Positions 3,897 to 51,123 of a DNA stretch of 51,123 bases are shown here, piece by piece. Within the stretch, counting starts at the first letter, position 1; every line of letters starts with the position of its first letter. The notes beneath the pieces are model-generated. The model saw only the letters and a program-made list of their open reading frames with translations. It ran no database searches and was not told the DNA's origin. A program made the translations under genes and the position numbers. This DNA is from a virus. Location of the stretch: IMG/VR virus record IMGVR_UViG_3300042518_000793, positions 1-51,123 of that record. One strand, written 5' to 3'.

Positions 3897-3922
3897 CTCC
3901 TCAGCCTCCCGGCTTTCCCCAA

Positions 3923-3991
3923 ATCATGCCCGGAGAATCTGCCCTGTCAACGTTGTTTTGTTGTTGACGTTGCGGATTCTGCCGGTAGTCT
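3923..3991. promoter_or_regulatory. Divergent promoters around a 23-bp palindromic operator
   Basis: GTCAAC (3946-3951) and GTTGAC (3963-3968) flank a T/G-rich centre. The whole 23 bp is identical to 13196-13218. Leftward: TTGACA (3950-3945) with CATGAT as -10 (3928-3923, 16-bp spacer). Rightward: TTGACG (3964-3969) with TAGTCT as -10 (3986-3991, 16-bp spacer). Both -35 boxes lie in the palindrome arms, so a protein bound here would block both promoters at once. It separates the leftward 3896 operon from the rightward operon at 4032. Confidence 0.7.
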
Positions 3992-13146: not shown

Positions 13147-13171
13147 GGAAGCGCCTCCTCGCGCTCCCGAC

Positions 13172-13241
13172 ACAATGCCGCGCGGAATCGTCGCGGTCAA
13201 CGTTGTTTTGTTGTTGACGACGGATTACGGGGCGGCATCAT
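13172..13241. promoter_or_regulatory. Second divergent promoter pair with the 23-bp palindrome
   Basis: GTCAAC (13196-13201) and GTTGAC (13213-13218) with the same centre as at 3946-3968; all 23 bp plus the following G are identical. Leftward: TTGACC (13200-13195), CATTGT as -10 (13177-13172, 17-bp spacer). Rightward: TTGACG (13214-13219), CATCAT as -10 (13236-13241, 16-bp spacer). It drives the HTH-regulator operon leftward and the recombination operon rightward. Flanking sequences differ from the first copy, so only the operator core is conserved. Confidence 0.7.
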
Positions 13242-13493: not shown

Positions 13494-13708
13494 CCGCCGC
13501 CGAGAGGTTCAAGGCGTGCCCCATCGCGGACCGCGAAGCGCCCATTATGGCGCTCGAACGCGAAGCCCGCAGCCTCACCGCGAAGGCGCTTGCCTGCCGA
13601 GACCACGGCGCGGACGCCATCGCGGACATTGCAGTGGGCCAACAAACCGCCGTGCTTGCGGCGCTCGAAGTGCTCCGCGCGCTTCACAAGGAGGCCACCA
13701 ATGGCTGA
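13490..13708 (+). CDS. Hypothetical helical protein, 72 aa
   Basis: Short all-helical protein: MTAAERFKACPIADREAPIM, then EREARSLTAKALACRDHGAD and a final helix VAALEVLRALHKEATNG-like. Overlaps the exonuclease start at 13701 by eight bases, so the two are likely coupled and may act together. Its size and charge would suit a small nuclease accessory, which is inference from position. Confidence 0.65.
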   Translation: MTAAERFKACPIADREAPIMALEREARSLTAKALACRDHGADAIADIAVGQQTAVLAALEVLRALHKEATNG

Positions 13709-14780
13709 CCTCGCCAACTGGCACGACGTACGCGGCACCGTGACCACCGCAAGCAACATCGCCGCGCTCGCCAAGCTCAGCAAGTGGGAGACCCCATGGT
13801 CGCTCTACATGCGCCGCAAGGGCCTACTCCCGCCCGTCGAAGAGACGGAGGCGATGTGGTTTGGCACCGCCTTGGAGCCCGTCATCATGGCGCGGCTTGC
13901 GGTGGTTCTCGACTGCCCCGTGGTCAGATGGGAGGACTTCGCTCGCGGCAACGCCATCAGCGAACAACACCTCTTCGACATGGGCACCGTCATCGTGCAG
14001 ACGGACCGCTGCCCCGTGCTCATCAACGAGCGCCTCGGCACCGGAGGCACCCCCGACGGCGTGGCCTACATCGACGGCCAATGGTGGCTCGTCGAGTGCA
14101 AAACCGTGGGCTACCAAGCCCATTGCGCGTGGGCCAAGTCGGACGGTGAAGCGACCTTCGACGGACTCAAGCCCCCGCAGCGCGAGCTTCCCGATGGCTA
14201 CGTCACGCAACCGACCGTCTACTGCGGCCTTCTCGGACTCGCGGGCATCGTGGTCCCGGTCCTCGTGGCGGGGCAACACCTCGACGTGTACCGCGTAGAG
14301 TTCGACAGGGACCTGTTCGATGCGCTCTGCGTGCTCTCGCAGGAGGCAGCGCAGGCCGATGAGCCGCCCGAGTTCGACCCCTACAAGGACGGCGAGCGCG
14401 TGGGCCAGTGGGCTGCGATGATGCCCGCCACCGAGACCGTGACCATCGACGACCCGGAGTTCGTGACGCTCGCTCGCGAAGCCGACGCCTTCCACCAGCT
14501 TGCGAAGCGCGCCAAGGAAGAAAGCGACGCCCGCCGCGCCGCGCTCCTGCACCGCATGGTCGAGGCCGGTATCGCCAAAGCCACGGTGCCGGGCGTCGGT
14601 AAGGTGTCCGTCACCACCCTGAAGGCCGTCCCGGAGCGCACCGTGACCCAGAAGGCCCGCGCCGCGACCTGTTACGCCCGTATCGCTCTCGGCAAGGACA
14701 CCGAGACCGCAACCGCCATCGTGGCCGCGTCCGAGCAGGTTCGGGTGTTGGCCTTGAGTGACAAGGAGACCGAGGAATGA
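13701..14780 (+). CDS. YqaJ/lambda-Exo-like recombination exonuclease
   Basis: A 359-residue protein of the PD-(D/E)XK superfamily. GTPDGVAYIDGQWWLVECKT (residues ~116-135) supplies Asp-119, Glu-132 and Lys-134 of the active site. Upstream, WFGTALEP (residues 53-60) has the conserved Glu in the GTA-LEP motif of YqaJ-type enzymes. It would degrade one strand from double-stranded ends, leaving single-stranded tails for the annealase encoded at 15519. The C-terminal third is helical and charged, without recognised motifs. Preceded by AAGGAGG; an in-frame extension to 13590 overlaps the previous gene and is rejected. Confidence 0.88.
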   Translation: MADLANWHDVRGTVTTASNIAALAKLSKWETPWSLYMRRKGLLPPVEETEAMWFGTALEPVIMARLAVVLDCPVVRWEDFARGNAISEQHLFDMGTVIVQTDRCPVLINERLGTGGTPDGVAYIDGQWWLVECKTVGYQAHCAWAKSDGEATFDGLKPPQRELPDGYVTQPTVYCGLLGLAGIVVPVLVAGQHLDVYRVEFDRDLFDALCVLSQEAAQADEPPEFDPYKDGERVGQWAAMMPATETVTIDDPEFVTLAREADAFHQLAKRAKEESDARRAALLHRMVEAGIAKATVPGVGKVSVTTLKAVPERTVTQKARAATCYARIALGKDTETATAIVAASEQVRVLALSDKETEE

Positions 14781-15214: not shown

Positions 15215-15522
15215 GCAACGACACCGCCATCATCATCCAGTCCGTCGAAGGGCGCTTGTGCGTCGTGACCATCGGCGCTGACATCGCAGCGGTCGCCGCC
15301 ATGCTGAACCGCGAGGAGGTCATCGGCCAAGTTGCGTCGGTGCTTTACGAGGGCAAGCCCAACTACCGCGACCGCGTGCCGAACCAAAACAACGACCACC
15401 ACCTCAGCGACGCCACCCGCCTAGAGTCGATTCTCGAAAGCATCGAAGACGCCAAGCGCATTGTGATTGCGCTCCGTAACCAGCACCTCAACGAAGTCAT
15501 TCGCTCCAAGGAGGCCCCATGA
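15211..15522 (+). CDS. Hypothetical protein, 103 aa
   Basis: Starts AIIIQSVEGRLCVVTIGADI (beta), followed by helices and a polar centre rich in Asn, Asp and His (DRVPNQNNDHHLSDATRLES). It ends in a long helix ESIEDAKRIVIALRNQHLNE. Sits directly upstream of the annealase and overlaps it by ATGA, with GGAGG-like sequence at its end serving that gene. Function unknown. Confidence 0.7.
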   Translation: MSNDTAIIIQSVEGRLCVVTIGADIAAVAAMLNREEVIGQVASVLYEGKPNYRDRVPNQNNDHHLSDATRLESILESIEDAKRIVIALRNQHLNEVIRSKEAP

Positions 15523-16313
15523 CCACCGAGACCGCCATTCAATCCACCAGCGCTTTCAACTCCTCCGAGGGCTTCGAGCTTCTTCAGCGCGTCGGCAACA
15601 TGTTCGCGAAGAGCGAGCTTGTGCCCCAGCACCTCCGGGGCAAACCCGCAGACTGCATCATCGCGGTGCAGCTCGCGCACGAGATGGGCCTTGCGCCGCT
15701 CTCCGTGCTCCAGAACATCTACATGGTCAGCGGCAAGGCGGGATGGTCCGCTCAGTTCCTCATCGCCCGCGCCAATGCGTCGGGGGTCTTTGACGACTCG
15801 GGCATTGACTGGGAGATCACGGGCAGGGGCGCTGACCTCGAAGTAACGGCCTTCGCCACCAAGCGCGCGGGAAGTCGCCGCGTCGAGTACACGGTGAGCT
15901 ACGCCATGGCCAAGGCCGAAGGATGGACGAAGAACGCCAAGTACCAGACGATGCCCGAGCTGATGTGTCGCTACCGTGCCGCGACCACCCTCATCGGGCT
16001 CTACTGCCCCGAGGTCAAGTTCGGTCTTGGCGTGCGCGAAGAACTGGAGGACATCGCCGTGTCCACTCCGCCCGCCCAGACGTCGCGCATCAAGGACCGT
16101 GTCCTTGCCGCCGCCCGCCACCAGCCCGAGCCCGCCGACGTCATCGACGAGCCCGCCGTGGAACCCAAGACCGCCGCGCGAGTCAAGGCGACGGACGACA
16201 TTCGCGACGGCACCATGGAACCCGGCGAGGCCGTGGCGTACCTCGTCGGTGCGGGGTTCACCGAGGGTGAGGCTAACCGCGTCGTCGAGGCGGCATTGGA
16301 AGGTGACGCGTGA
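15519..16313 (+). CDS. RecT-like single-strand annealing protein
   Basis: A 264-residue protein whose core resembles RecT-family annealases: FELLQRVGNMFAKSELVPQH, PADCIIAVQLAHEMGLAPLS, VLQNIYMVSGKAGWSAQFLI, then a beta-rich segment and ELMCRYRAATTLIGLYCPEV. These proteins coat single strands left by the partner exonuclease and anneal them to complementary DNA. Residues ~175-215 are a Pro/Ala-rich linker. A small helical C-terminal domain follows (MEPGEAVAYLVGAGFTEGEA), possibly a protein-binding module. The exonuclease lies 740 bases upstream. Confidence 0.82.
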   Translation: MTTETAIQSTSAFNSSEGFELLQRVGNMFAKSELVPQHLRGKPADCIIAVQLAHEMGLAPLSVLQNIYMVSGKAGWSAQFLIARANASGVFDDSGIDWEITGRGADLEVTAFATKRAGSRRVEYTVSYAMAKAEGWTKNAKYQTMPELMCRYRAATTLIGLYCPEVKFGLGVREELEDIAVSTPPAQTSRIKDRVLAAARHQPEPADVIDEPAVEPKTAARVKATDDIRDGTMEPGEAVAYLVGAGFTEGEANRVVEAALEGDA

Positions 16314-39260: not shown

Positions 39261-39287
39261 GGGGCTAAGCTCCTGCGCGTCTCGCGC

Positions 39288-39324
39288 GTCTCATATTGAG
39301 AACGACGGCGTGCGGTCTTGTCAA
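39288..39324 (-). promoter_or_regulatory. Putative leftward promoter with 15-bp palindrome upstream of scaffold
   Basis: In the 65-base gap between portal and scaffold genes, the minus strand has TTGACA (39324-39319). Eighteen bases on comes CTCAAT (39300-39295) as a weak -10. The palindrome TTCTCAATATGAGAC (39302-39288) overlaps the -10 position. The same 15-mer occurs at 42279-42293. A bound factor here would block the promoter, or RNA read-through could form a hairpin. It would set scaffold and coat expression separately from the portal. Confidence 0.5.
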
Positions 39325-42149: not shown

Positions 42150-42373
42150 GTCACCTTCGCTGCGCGCTTTCGGCGCTCTTCCACAGCCCGCTCAAAGGCG
42201 GCGCGGTGATGAACCTCGAACCGTTGCCACGCTTCGTCGTGCGGGGCGACGCTCTCAGCCTGCACCACTTCGGGCGCTTTCTCAATATGAGACGTGCGAG
42301 ACTCGCGACGCAAGACCGCCCAGACGGACAGCGCAAGCGACGCGACGGACAAAATCAGCGAGAACCAAACCAT
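42146..42373 (-). CDS. Small membrane-anchored protein, 75 aa
   Basis: One N-terminal span (MVWFSLILSVASLALSVWAV) followed by a charged helical tail (EAWQRFEVHHRAAFERAVEE). Start lies inside the last 19 bases of the terminase gene. It contains the second copy of the 15-bp palindrome at 42279-42293. A membrane anchor within a packaging gene block is unusual. Function unknown. Confidence 0.65.
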   Translation of the reverse strand: MVWFSLILSVASLALSVWAVLRRESRTSHIEKAPEVVQAESVAPHDEAWQRFEVHHRAAFERAVEERRKRAAKVT

Positions 42374-45773: not shown

Positions 45774-45787
45774 GGAGTCTTTCCTTC

Positions 45788-45847
45788 CGGGCGCTCAGCC
45801 CGTCCTGGGTACAAAGCAACTATGCCGCCTCTCACCCAACCTTGCAA
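45788..45847 (-). promoter_or_regulatory. Leftward promoter and leader hairpin for the 45773 gene
   Basis: Minus strand: TTGCAA (-35, 45847-45842), 17-base spacer, CATAGT (-10, 45824-45819), then the leader hairpin CGGGC-TGAGC-GCCCG (45802-45788) leading into AAGGAAAG. An A-run lies upstream of the -35 box like an UP element. The same arrangement occurs at 46711-46771. The spacing, -10, hairpin and loop agree between the two copies. Confidence 0.7.
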
Positions 45848-45866
45848 GCTCTTTTTTGCGCGCACC

Positions 45867-46085
45867 TCACTTTTTCTGGAGCTTGGCCAGAGCGTCGCAC
45901 AGAAGCTCCTCGACTGCCGACACAACGCGCTCTGCGTCTGCGTCCGTCGGTGCTGCAAATCGACCCCGCTCGAGCCCAGCCCACGTTCGAAGCCGAGACT
46001 TCGGGACGCCACTCGCCCCGACCACTTCCCGGATGGTTCCGGGGTAAATGGCCAGGGCGTAGGCGATGCGTTCACTCGGCGTCAT
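45867..46085 (-). CDS. Small HTH protein, 72 aa
   Basis: Starts MTPSERIAYALAIYPGTIRE and contains TIREVVGASGVPKSRLRTWA, a probable helix-turn-helix (residues ~18-37), then a helical C terminus (ADAERVVSAVEELLCDALAK). The size suits a Cro-like or excisionase-like regulator. The ATG at 46085 overlaps the end of the upstream gene; the in-frame region above 46085 is rejected. It could bind the palindromes at 45232-45266 or regulate the promoter just downstream. Confidence 0.65.
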   Translation of the reverse strand: MTPSERIAYALAIYPGTIREVVGASGVPKSRLRTWAGLERGRFAAPTDADAERVVSAVEELLCDALAKLQKK

Positions 46086-46696: not shown

Positions 46697-46710
46697 GGTC
46701 CTAACTCCTT

Positions 46711-46771
46711 CGGGCGCTCAGCCCGTCTCGGTTGATGTCCTGACTATGCCGCCCCTCAAACCACCGCGCAA
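46711..46771 (-). promoter_or_regulatory. Leftward promoter and leader hairpin for the 46696 gene
   Basis: Minus strand: TTGCGC (-35, 46771-46766), 17-base spacer, CATAGT (-10, 46748-46743), then CGGGC-TGAGC-GCCCG (46725-46711) running into AAGGAG. The A7 run (minus strand of 46775-46781) lies just upstream of the -35 box. It agrees with the promoter at 45788-45847 over about 90 bases. The non-coding gap 46697-46838 otherwise holds nothing recognisable. Confidence 0.7.
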
Positions 46772-46838
46772 GTCTTTTTTTGCTCACGCCGCACTTTTTC
46801 TCACGCCTCCGATGGCGACGGCATCCTAGCGCGCCCGT

Positions 46839-47579: not shown

Positions 47580-47948
47580 TCACCGCGCCTCAGCGTCGCT
47601 CGTAGCCGCCTTCCCGGTTCGCGCGCCCGATGCGACCGTGGGCAACGTCCGGGACCGCTCGACGAACGCCCCCATCCCTTCCTCTGCGAACGCCGCCGCC
47701 TCATCCCGGAACGCTTTGACCGCGACCCGGTACGCCTTGACCTGCTCGCCGCTCATCTCGGCCATGCACCGGCCCACCGCTTCCCGCAGCGTCGGCGCAT
47801 CCACACCGCCGAGGTACGCCTTCGCCATGACCGTGACCAATGCAAGCCCCGCAGGCCCGCCCTGACGCCATGCCTCCACCGCGCCGTCCGTCGCCAGCGC
47901 CACGAACTCACGCATCACCGCGCCGTCATTCACCTTTCCGTCACTCAT
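47580..47948 (-). CDS. Hypothetical helical protein next to the origin region, 122 aa
   Basis: Starts MSDGKVNDGAVMREFVALAT at 47948 with AGGAGGG upstream; the in-frame extension to 47972 is less likely. Helical with Ala-rich repeats (AWRQGGPAGLALVTVMAKAY, EMSGEQVKAYRVAVKAFRDE). The first codons hold one more iteron copy (TGACGGA at 47943-47937), so its start lies at the edge of the origin region. A role in replication control is possible but only by position. Confidence 0.65.
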   Translation of the reverse strand: MSDGKVNDGAVMREFVALATDGAVEAWRQGGPAGLALVTVMAKAYLGGVDAPTLREAVGRCMAEMSGEQVKAYRVAVKAFRDEAAAFAEEGMGAFVERSRTLPTVASGARTGKAATSDAEAR

Positions 47949-48279
47949 GCTGCCCTCCTGCCCCGACTTCACGCCGGGGTCAACGCCCTGGTTATTGACG
48001 GAGTACGTTGTACAGTCACCATTCCGTCAATAACTCCGTCAAGACTTATTTCCATGATTCCAAGTACTTGTATGGGTACTGACGCAATTGACGCAGATCC
48101 ACGCACACGCACACGAGCGCACACGCGCACCCACAGACGTGCGGACGTACGCACATGTCCGCATGCAGCCCTCGGAAACTCCGTCAATTCCGTCAGTGCT
48201 ATCGTAACTCCGCGCCGTCGTTCAACTTCGGCTTGACGGAGACACTGACGGAGTACTGACGGACCACCCATCTCCGTCA
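47937..48279. other. Putative replication origin with TGACGGA iterons
   Basis: The largest non-coding gap in the genome (47949-48276, between the primase end and the 47948 gene). It holds ten exact copies of TGACGGA on either strand, at 47937, 47996, 48023, 48035, 48180, 48189, 48234, 48246, 48257 and 48273, plus two TGACGCA variants at 48080 and 48089. Many are flanked as TTGACGGAGT. Between the clusters lie an AT-richer stretch (48028-48095), the palindrome CAAGTACTTG (48061-48070), and an alternating CA/CG run (48099-48165) that could form non-B DNA. Iterons, AT-rich segment and adjacent primase gene together fit an origin. No initiator protein is identified. Confidence 0.7.
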
Positions 48280-51093
48280 AGACCACCACGTCTCGTCCTT
48301 CGCCTCAGTCGGGGCCAGCGTCGATGGTCCGGTGTTCGTGTCCAGCCGCTTGCCCGTCGCAACCGCTTGAAACTGCAAGCCCCGCAGCCCGCGCTTAGCC
48401 GACGGCCCAAACTTCAGCCCGGCCACCACACGCCCCTCGTTGGTCGCCACCGCCCGCCTCAGATGCTTCGTGATCGCCGCTGCGTCGATCTGGACCCCGC
48501 ACGCGGTCACGATGGCGTGCGTGAGCCGCCGACGCTTCGCCTTGTCCGACTCCGTCATCGACCCGCCGCCGCCGCCGTGCTTCAGCGCCACAAGCTCCTC
48601 CACCGCTTCAGCCAGCGACACCGGGCGCTCCCCGTAGACGTCGTGCCACGCCGCCGCCAGTTCGAGGTAAGCGGACACGTCCTCGTCGGAGTCCACGCGC
48701 TGCGCCTCGATGCTCGCGATGACGTCGCCCCGACCCAGCCACATCAGCGGCTCCCTCACCATCGCGTTCCATTGCACGAACTCCCGCAACGGCGAGCACT
48801 TGTTCGGCCTGCCCGCCAGCAGGTACGCCCGCGCAATGCTCAAACACGCCGGCACCAGCGACTCGCGGTTCTCCCTGACGTAGTCCACAAGGTCCGGGTA
48901 CTTGAACGTTCGCCCAACGTCGGGGCGCTCCATCATCGTCACCATGCGCGCCCGCACTGTTCGCCCCACGCCGTCGCCCCGGAACTTCACGTTTCGGCCC
49001 GTGATCGTGATCAGCGTGCGGTTCGGCGCTGATTCCGTGCTGCTCTCCCCGAGGACCCGCTGCGTGTAGATCTCCGAAGTCATCATGGTGTCATACGCCT
49101 CACCGCCGAACGGGAGCGTGATGTTGTCGATGGACAGGTGCGGCACGCCGTCTCGAAGGTAGCTGAACACGGTCTTGCGCAGTTCGTCCTCGCTCCCCGG
49201 CTGGTTCATGTTCGCCGGCATGTGACCGCTCATCAGCATCGACGTCATGTTGACCAGCGTGCCCTTGCCGATGCCCGAGCTGGGAGAGTCGATCAGGAAA
49301 CCAGGGCACAACCGAAACGTGCGCCGCATGGTCGCCGTAATCAGCAGAGCCACCATCGTCGTGCGGTCAAGCTCCGACTCCCACGGGAAGTCACACAGCA
49401 AGTCCTCCAGCCATTCCACCGCCTTGACCGCTGCCTCACGCGTCGTCCTCGTCTCCGCGAACTTCGCGCCGCTGAAGTCCACCAGTAGCTTCGTCTCCGG
49501 GTCATACCCCTCCCCGACCAGTTCGCCGTTCATCCGAAGCACTGGCAACCGATGCACGCCGTGAACCTCGCGAAGCACGCCGCCCCACCGTTCGGGCATC
49601 GTGATCACCGCCTCGACCACCCGATCACTCACCGACCGACGCTGCGGCACCGGCCCGTTCTTGCCGCGCCGCTCCTCCACGAATACCGCGCGCTCCTCGA
49701 TAATCACCCGCGCCGACGCTTTCGACAGCGCCCGAAGCTGCGTCAGCCCGTCGCCACCGCGCCCCGCCATCACCATCGAGTTCGTCCGCGAGTAGATGTC
49801 GGGATGCTTCGCCAGCGCTCTGACCACCGCATCGACCTGCGCCCCGAGTTCGCCATCGACCACGAGAATCACATCCCGCTCGATTTGCGCCGCCTTTGGT
49901 TGCGCGGGCGCAGCCTCACTCGTGACCTCGACCTCATCGGGAATCGGCTCGCGCACCCACTCAGGCGGCTCCGCTTCAGCCTTCGCCGCCCGCGCCGGTC
50001 GCTCCTCCCACGCCTTGAGGTATCCCTCTGACACGAGATGCTCTTTCGGCGTCTTGCCTCCCGCGTGCGCGTCGATGTCGAGCGCGTCCCCCGTAAACGA
50101 GTTCTTGCCCTCGATCCACCCGCCGACGCCCACGCCTTCCGTGTGCCCCGACGACCAGCAGATCCACCGATCCGACGCGCCAGCTAGCGCCTTGAAACAC
50201 CCGTTGTGCTGGCACACCGGACACGTCCCCACCGACGTCGGGTAAGCCCGGCTGCGCTCCGCGACGTACCGCGCGGCGGCGTCCTGAAAGCGCGTTGACG
50301 CTGCGCCGCTCGCCCCACTGGCCCACACGGCCGGCGTCGTCTTCGGCGCGGCCACCGGCCCAACGAACGCCTCGATCTGCTCCCGGCTCACCGGCACGCC
50401 GTCGCCCCACTCCAGCACGTTTGCCATTCGGTGCGGGCGCTCCTCGGTTGACTCGCCCTTCGCGCTCCACGTCCCCGGCAACCGCCAGATGCGGGCCGCG
50501 TTGCCGACCACGGGATCAACCGCCGCGTGCGCAGTCGAGAACCGCATCAGTGCCTTGACGAAACGCATCGGCAGGTCGCTTGCCGCATCGAGGTCACACA
50601 GCCACATGACGTGTGCCCCGTTGCCCGAGTCTGTCACCACCGGGCGCGGCCATCCCAGCCCATCGCACAACTCGCCCACGATCAGCGACGCCACACGCCG
50701 CGCGTGCCCGCGCTCTTCCTCCGTAGCCGACACGCCCTTGGGTCGCACCGCGTCGATGTCCACGAGCAGCCAGCGCCGCCGAGTAACGTCTGCGTCCTTC
50801 GCTCCGTCGCCGGTCTTGGCCTTCGCCAGCGCCCCGGTCACAAGCCGCGCCACCGGGTTCGGCGTGAAGTAGCACCCCATCCACCCGTTGCGCTTGCCGT
50901 GCGACACGAGCGCCTTGACGCACGCTGCCACGTCCCCCGGCCCGAACGTCCCGATGGTCACGCCGCGCTCGCCCCGGCTCAGGATGCGAACCTCAAACGA
51001 CTCACCGTCTCGAAGCCCGTGCGCCGCCAGCGCATCAAGCGCCACCGTCGCCGCGTCTTCGTCTACCCATCTCACTGCCGCGCCCTGACCCAT
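48277..51093 (-). CDS. Archaeo-eukaryotic-type primase fused to helicase-like ATPase
   Basis: A 938-residue replication protein. Residues ~1-215 form a PrimPol-type (AEP) primase: WLLVDIDAV (metal-binding Asp-112/Asp-114), VTDSGNGAHVMWLCDL (~153-168, with catalytic His-161), and ARIWRLPGTWSAKG (~200-213). Cys-291, Cys-294, Cys-312 and His-317 form a zinc-finger-like site. Residues ~590-800 form a P-loop ATPase with Walker A DSPSSGIGKGT (~606-616) and Walker B LSIDN (~651). It should prime and unwind DNA at the iteron region downstream of its own stop. Alternative GTG start seven codons in overlaps the upstream stop as GTGA. Runs across the circle joint. Confidence 0.88.
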   Translation of the reverse strand: MGQGAAVRWVDEDAATVALDALAAHGLRDGESFEVRILSRGERGVTIGTFGPGDVAACVKALVSHGKRNGWMGCYFTPNPVARLVTGALAKAKTGDGAKDADVTRRRWLLVDIDAVRPKGVSATEEERGHARRVASLIVGELCDGLGWPRPVVTDSGNGAHVMWLCDLDAASDLPMRFVKALMRFSTAHAAVDPVVGNAARIWRLPGTWSAKGESTEERPHRMANVLEWGDGVPVSREQIEAFVGPVAAPKTTPAVWASGASGAASTRFQDAAARYVAERSRAYPTSVGTCPVCQHNGCFKALAGASDRWICWSSGHTEGVGVGGWIEGKNSFTGDALDIDAHAGGKTPKEHLVSEGYLKAWEERPARAAKAEAEPPEWVREPIPDEVEVTSEAAPAQPKAAQIERDVILVVDGELGAQVDAVVRALAKHPDIYSRTNSMVMAGRGGDGLTQLRALSKASARVIIEERAVFVEERRGKNGPVPQRRSVSDRVVEAVITMPERWGGVLREVHGVHRLPVLRMNGELVGEGYDPETKLLVDFSGAKFAETRTTREAAVKAVEWLEDLLCDFPWESELDRTTMVALLITATMRRTFRLCPGFLIDSPSSGIGKGTLVNMTSMLMSGHMPANMNQPGSEDELRKTVFSYLRDGVPHLSIDNITLPFGGEAYDTMMTSEIYTQRVLGESSTESAPNRTLITITGRNVKFRGDGVGRTVRARMVTMMERPDVGRTFKYPDLVDYVRENRESLVPACLSIARAYLLAGRPNKCSPLREFVQWNAMVREPLMWLGRGDVIASIEAQRVDSDEDVSAYLELAAAWHDVYGERPVSLAEAVEELVALKHGGGGGSMTESDKAKRRRLTHAIVTACGVQIDAAAITKHLRRAVATNEGRVVAGLKFGPSAKRGLRGLQFQAVATGKRLDTNTGPSTLAPTEAKDETWWS

Positions 51094-51123
51094 TCGCCCA
51101 CCGCCTCCCGCCGATAGATCGGC
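50997..51123. repeat. Terminal direct repeat, right copy
   Basis: Exact copy of bases 1-127. If the molecule is circular one copy should be dropped, giving a 50,996-bp genome. The repeat lies inside coding sequence (start of the primase-helicase gene), which argues against a packaging-generated terminus placed in an intergenic region. Confidence 0.95.

Follow-up and report, generated by a model that had tools for sequence, protein, structure and literature searches.

An iteron array with mirror symmetry at the 3′ end of a primase-helicase gene, a probable replication origin in an uncultured phage genome

Genes and features of the locus

The stretch of DNA analysed, comprising all 51,123 nucleotides of IMG/VR record IMGVR_UViG_3300042518_000793 (hereafter, the window), has an exact 127-bp direct terminal repeat (1-127 and 50997-51123) and therefore looks like a complete phage genome that is circular or circularly permuted. 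Its phage genes include those for a P22/SU10-like portal and a terminase, together with a capsid match. On the arm opposite the initiator gene, a recombination pair is encoded (Table 1). It was also noticed that the window contains a direct repeat of about 96 bp (45782-45877 and 46706-46801, 76% identical), a second direct pair (3904-3969 and 13153-13219, 78%) and a 28-bp inverted repeat, 93% identical, which flanks the portal gene (39275-39302 and 42279-42306).

The gap between the stop codon of a 938-aa primase-helicase gene and the ATG of a 122-aa ORF, for which no family match was found, is filled by an array of short repeats. As had been predicted originally, the primase-helicase gene ends inside this array, its TGA stop being the first three bases of iteron 1. 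Between 47937 and 48279 (343 bp), TGACGGA occurs in ten exact copies, four on the plus and six on the minus strand, and the variant TGACGCA occurs twice. The whole window has 24 copies of TGACGGA, compared with 9.3 expected; in its other parts no 7-mer exceeds 6 copies per 343 bp, and among 500 first-order Markov simulations of the region, 499 reached at most 5 copies and one reached 7, counts above 4 being very rare. The original count of ten exact and two near copies in both orientations within about 340 bp was thus confirmed, and it lies beyond chance. The extent first assigned to the array, 47937-48279, needed correction: the repeats are real, but the copy at 47937 belongs to the beginning of the following gene (ATGAGTGACGGA), reads CAACGGA in a close relative and lies outside the mirror set described below. 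The functional unit is therefore best taken as 47996-48279, and the copy at 47937 is probably not part of the origin.

Table 1. Positions of the initiator gene, the repeat sites and neighbouring features in the window
Feature	Position	Strand	Remarks
Initiator gene, 938 aa	48277..51093	-	AEP-like primase, SF3/D5-like helicase and C-terminal winged helix, fused
AEP-like primase half	50329..51015	-	about residues 27-255
Helicase half	48280..49950	-	residues 382-938; homologous to pWTY27 RepA
C-terminal winged-helix region	48358..48615	-	residues 827-912; predicted iteron reader, from secondary structure of model
Iteron 1	48273..48279	-	overlaps stop codon; mirror partner 47996-48002
Iteron, extra	48257..48263	+	without mirror partner; degenerate in relative (TTCGTCA)
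Iteron	48246..48252	+	mirror partner 48023-48029
Iteron	48234..48240	+	mirror partner 48035-48041
Inner iteron	48189..48195	-	mirror partner 48080-48086
Inner iteron	48180..48186	-	9 bp from iteron 48189..48195; mirror partner 48089-48095
Central spacer	48096..48179		84 bp; alternating purine/pyrimidine tract
Inner near-iteron TGACGCA	48089..48095	+	
Inner near-iteron TGACGCA	48080..48086	+	
AT-rich segment	48042..48079		candidate DNA unwinding element; the genome's AT-richest 40-bp windows extend into it
Iteron	48035..48041	-	
Iteron	48023..48029	-	
Iteron	47996..48002	+	outer mirror partner of iteron 1
Tenth exact copy	47937..47943	-	in start of next ORF; not conserved
Downstream ORF, 122 aa	47580..47948	-	start ATG at 47948
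YqaJ-type nuclease and RecT-type protein	13590-14780 and 15519-16313		recombination pair

Symmetry and composition of the array

Counted from the stop codon in the direction of the gene, the sites start at -3(+), 13(-), 24(-), 36(-), 81(+), 90(+), 181(-), 190(-), 235(+), 247(+), 274(-) and 333(+). Five oppositely oriented pairs, -3/274, 24/247, 36/235, 81/190 and 90/181, have an identical midpoint, so the ten sites concerned share one axis to the base, located at about 48137 inside the alternating spacer; the outermost site, 333, does not belong to the mirror set. The array is hence an inverted repeat built of five exact mirror pairs. At least five exact pairs arose in 2 of 200,000 shuffles of spacings and orientations (p = 1.5e-5).

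Two compositional features named in the original prediction were borne out. The AT-richer patch is real, with the AT-richest 40-bp windows of the genome starting at 48027-48041, inside the array, and the alternating CA/CG tract, at about 48097-48175, ranks in the top 0.07% of 84-bp windows for purine/pyrimidine alternation. A palindrome, CAAGTACTTG, is indeed present at 48061-48070, but it is not conserved, the relative having CAAGTGCATA, and is probably incidental.

Conservation in a close relative

The primase search of IMG/VR yielded one close relative only, record 3300021961_000198, with an initiator 85% identical to that of the window. The sites of this relative are mirrored in the same way, except that the axis is displaced by half a base. 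Between the two genomes, identity is 96% over eleven sites, 67% over the spacer and 89% over the other array bases; the spacer has drifted in sequence, whereas its length is kept within 1 bp in site spacing and its strong purine/pyrimidine alternation is retained (top 0.12%). Although two genomes are few, conserved sites around a diverged spacer of steady length are consistent with binding sites whose separation is constrained. The relative keeps neither the 47937 copy nor the palindrome.

Searches at the DNA level gave little beyond this record. The array region had no blastn match among phages, and IMG/VR pattern scans for pairs of TGACGGA returned nearly exclusively isolated pairs or coding repeats, the sole matching array being that of the same relative; among the portal relatives, none except this record reached the origin region. 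One bi-oriented cluster (locus L162) was rejected as a counterpart, because it is located within a DUF1376-like gene and shows no sequence relationship. As an observation in its own right, this segment (548-1675 of L162), which we take to be a DUF1376-like replication gene, is coding sequence with TTGACGGA repeats in both orientations and represents a possible in-gene origin with a similar iteron.

The primase-helicase as probable initiator

The N-terminal half carries the catalytic motifs of AEP primases (DxD, sGxGxH and a third acidic motif) as VDID at residue 111, SGNGAH at 156 and VDP at 192. It matches phrog_2478. A Bacteroides phage DNA polymerase has a related N-terminus (28% identity), in which these motifs recur when the two are aligned. 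Pfam gave no Prim-Pol (PF09250) hit up to an E-value of 5, hhalign to Prim-Pol rows gave a probability of 0.4%, and the AEP domains encoded upstream in other loci had no phmmer match to the window N-terminus. With these AEP-type motifs, the N-terminus is not a Toprim-type primase of the phage P4 alpha kind. An AlphaFold model of this half, made with two sequences, was poor (pLDDT 35) and was not used.

The helicase half (residues 382-938) was modelled by AlphaFold at high confidence, with a pLDDT of 88.7. Its best PDB match was the SaPI5 primase-helicase 7ola (Z 15.3, model residues 21-517), followed by poxvirus D5/E5 helicases, ASFV PrimPol and NrS-1, and the AAA+ fold shared by the predicted model with SaPI5, D5 and NrS-1 places it in the SF3/D5-like helicase class. 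The likeness to SaPI is one of fold only, as phmmer and profile searches of PDB sequences matched no SaPI chain. At its end the model has helices 446-457, 467-484 and 490-503 followed by a beta hairpin, which fits a winged helix. By analogy with SaPI Rep and Cch2, this element is the predicted iteron reader.

In tblastn, residues 482-831 were 26.9% identical to RepA of the Streptomyces plasmid pWTY27 (E 9e-22). It had been remarked that the array is accompanied by no obvious Rep protein; the primase-helicase, whose helicase/winged-helix half is homologous to RepA, a protein that binds iterons beside its own gene, is very probably itself the Rep. The HTH proteins near the array that had been put forward as binders are not needed.

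Arrays beside homologous helicases

Homologues found by tblastn in plasmids and phages were about 25-30% identical, and the aligned homologous helicases with arrays of their own about 21-27% identical, to the window protein. At the 3′ end of the helicase gene, 8-mers arrayed in both orientations were present in pCM32, pWTY27, three Streptomyces plasmids, pGP6, AZO_p2 and the archaeal virus vir525; in these the array is the strongest repeat cluster or among the strongest, and the 8-mer differs in nearly every one. A further 80 actinobacterial and 74 viral loci came from locus searches, for which a broad alignment (A4) was too divergent to be used. For each locus, 8-mer copies were counted in a segment of constant length (450 bp) at the stop codon and compared with control segments. 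At least five copies were present in 77 of the 80 actinobacterial loci versus 5 of 1126 control segments, in 8 of 20 annotated plasmids and phages versus 2 of 334, and in 5 of 72 viral loci versus 1 of 1087. With a threshold of at least four copies, the viral loci gave 11 of 72 versus 10 of 1087; the remaining 61 phage loci had fewer than four copies of any 8-mer after the gene. The actinobacterial loci are not independent events, because plasmids with arrays had served to build the query and the loci are mutually related; at 70% identity, the array-bearing set reduces to 24 representatives, the window included.

The giant Caulobacter and Ruegeria phages have no array. A large group of IMG/VR phages (L297-L322) has related helicases without a dense 8-mer array after the gene, and their origins may use fewer or degenerate iterons. 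The distance from the stop codon to the next gene ranges from about 180 bp to 1.7 kb among the homologues. In Kibdelosporangium banguiense, an array of AAACCCGC (nine copies) lies 1.7 kb downstream of the helicase stop and not directly after it, and pWTY27 has a second array, CCGCGAAC in ten copies at about 401-825 of its locus, far from rep. The Bacteroides phage protein that shares the AEP half only has a DnaB-like helicase, and its 9.7-kb locus contains no array; this single case, although weak evidence, is in line with an association of the array with the helicase half.

Iteron similarity correlated with similarity of the C-terminal domain (rho 0.29) no better than with that of the ATPase core (0.37; partial 0.07), and the role of the winged helix as iteron reader therefore stays a prediction. 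Only about half of 91 arrays passed the dyad test at 0.05, and arrays of other loci are symmetric in ways that differ from that of the window; symmetry is therefore common, while its exact plan varies.

The closest agreement in plan was with Winogradskya humida (L229), whose helicase is 23% identical. Like those of other actinobacterial elements, its array follows the helicase stop; it differs in having the iteron AAACCCGG and in being located on a chromosomal contig. Counted outward from the inner pair, the window sites are spaced 9, 45, 12 and 27 bp on both sides, and those of W. humida 9, 48, 12 and 27-28 bp. With the spacer left free, the ten mirrored sites of the window match those of W. 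humida in order and orientation, with spacing within 3 bp. A match as good as this to any representative array was obtained with 2 of 9216 shuffled window arrays (p = 3e-4).

Function of the array

The array is very likely the replication origin of the phage, to which the primase-helicase from the adjoining upstream gene would bind in cis; from sequence comparison and analogy, we put the probability at roughly 0.85. Both the comparative evidence and the example of pWTY27 support the proposal of an iteron-type origin beside the primase-helicase. Most likely, the initiator would read the TTGACGGA-type iterons with its C-terminal winged helix, and one helicase ring would assemble on each mirror half, so that two hexamers would face each other head to head across the 84-bp spacer. 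Duplex opening may take place at the AT-rich segment 48042-48079 and/or in the alternating spacer; the fused AEP domain would then prime, and forks would depart both ways. A change of GC skew at this point had been suggested as a check, and there is no sign change at 48 kb, which lends no support to this scheme. Also counting against the assignment are the many homologous phage loci without a dense array and the clear mirror symmetry of only about half of the arrays.

The other readings explain less. Autoregulation through origin binding is common in plasmids, and an array that is mainly an operator, through which a regulator or the initiator controls the operon starting at 47948, would account for the co-directional ORF directly downstream with its Shine-Dalgarno-like GGAGGG; an HTH_17/MerR-like protein, a conceivable regulator, is encoded at 497-856. 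Twelve sites over 340 bp with an exact dyad and an AT-rich segment nevertheless go beyond a usual operator, no second such cluster of sites occurs in the window, and the next gene in homologues stands at no constant distance, which makes this explanation improbable. An additional autoregulatory role of an array that is primarily the origin is quite possible.

Iteron arrays serve as centromeres too, and one homologous plasmid (L210) has parA downstream, so that a partition or incompatibility site of a plasmid-like prophage, as opposed to a replication start, was considered. This is more doubtful still, given that about 30 window proteins scanned included no ParA/ParB family match, that nearly every actinobacterial locus has the array after its helicase gene and that the pWTY27 precedent concerns replication. 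Several 10-12 bp inverted repeats would suit mRNA hairpins, a terminator or a packaging signal, but this reading is the least probable: no T-run follows the repeats, the mirror pairs span 280 bp around a diverged spacer, an identical layout recurs with another iteron sequence, and the terminase large-subunit gene is about 4 kb away.

Comparison with known systems

The pairing of iterons with an AEP primase had seemed unfamiliar when the array was first noticed, yet close parallels exist in pWTY27 repB/repA with its iterons, pRN1 orf904, phage BPP-1 and SaPI-type elements. The basic replication locus of pWTY27 consists of repAB and an adjacent 300-bp iteron region, to which RepA binds as shown by EMSA and by protection in DNase I footprinting; with added telomeres the locus propagates in linear form, indicating bidirectional replication (PMC3583192). 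As in pWTY27 and the SaPI type, the window has short iterons directly 3′ of the helicase gene, and its helicase is a RepA homologue. Both the window and pWTY27 have iterons in both orientations just after this gene (8-bp iterons in pWTY27), with inner pairs 9 bp apart across a spacer, and in pWTY27 10 of 10 sites are mirrored. The plasmid differs in its iteron (GTGGGAAC), in the outer site layout and in encoding the primase RepB separately from the iteron-binding RepA.

In SaPI Rep, the C-terminal domain recognises iterons directly downstream of its own gene, and SCCmec Cch2 binds the region downstream of its gene (PMC7581432). These proteins share with the window initiator the helicase fold, the downstream iterons and a C-terminal DNA-binding domain, and two hexamers have been proposed for them (PMC7581432); in contrast, no sequence similarity was detected by phmmer or profile search, and Cch2 has three 5-nt iterons. 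The alpha protein of phage P4 likewise joins a winged helix that binds origin repeats with unwinding and priming in one protein (PMC4234260), but its primase is of the Toprim type, whereas that of the window is AEP-like.

An element of 100 nt that follows orf904 is indispensable in pRN1, and a counterpart has been proposed for phage BIP-1 (PMC4234260), for which we examined the genome of Bordetella phage BPP-1. ORF904 and the BPP-1 protein resemble the window initiator in combining AEP primase, SF3 helicase and winged helix in one chain, with an origin downstream that is essential (pRN1) or proposed (BIP-1). The differences are that these origins have been described as a single stem-loop (about 100 nt in the pRN1 type) and not as an iteron array (PMC4234260), a repeat search in the window having shown no single large hairpin, and that the BPP-1 helicase matches D5_N in Pfam while the window helicase does not. 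The BPP-1 region contains two copies of TTGCCTCGT 9 bp apart and, about 70 nt further on, two inverted copies also with 9-bp spacing, and it resembles the inner core of the window array.

We tentatively suggest, at somewhat less than even odds, that a single origin plan is common to the replicons of phages, plasmids and actinobacterial elements, with spacing and polarity fixed across a dyad at the 3′ end of the initiator gene and the iteron sequence exchanged many times; the "stem-loop" origin of the BPP-1 kind would be a reduced form, and geometry rather than sequence would be what a double hexamer requires. If geometry is conserved while iterons change, these elements would offer a simple system for studying initiator/origin co-evolution and the placement of two rings. 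The assignment also provides an origin and an initiator for an uncultured lineage of phages in which no Rep protein had been recognised, and a testable rule, namely that a mirror-symmetric iteron array is to be sought just past the stop codon of helicases of the window type. Compared with the systems above, function and type, an iteron origin beside its primase-helicase, are already known; the iteron sequence and the phage lineage are new, and what is unusual is that the site geometry recurs in a distant element that uses another iteron.
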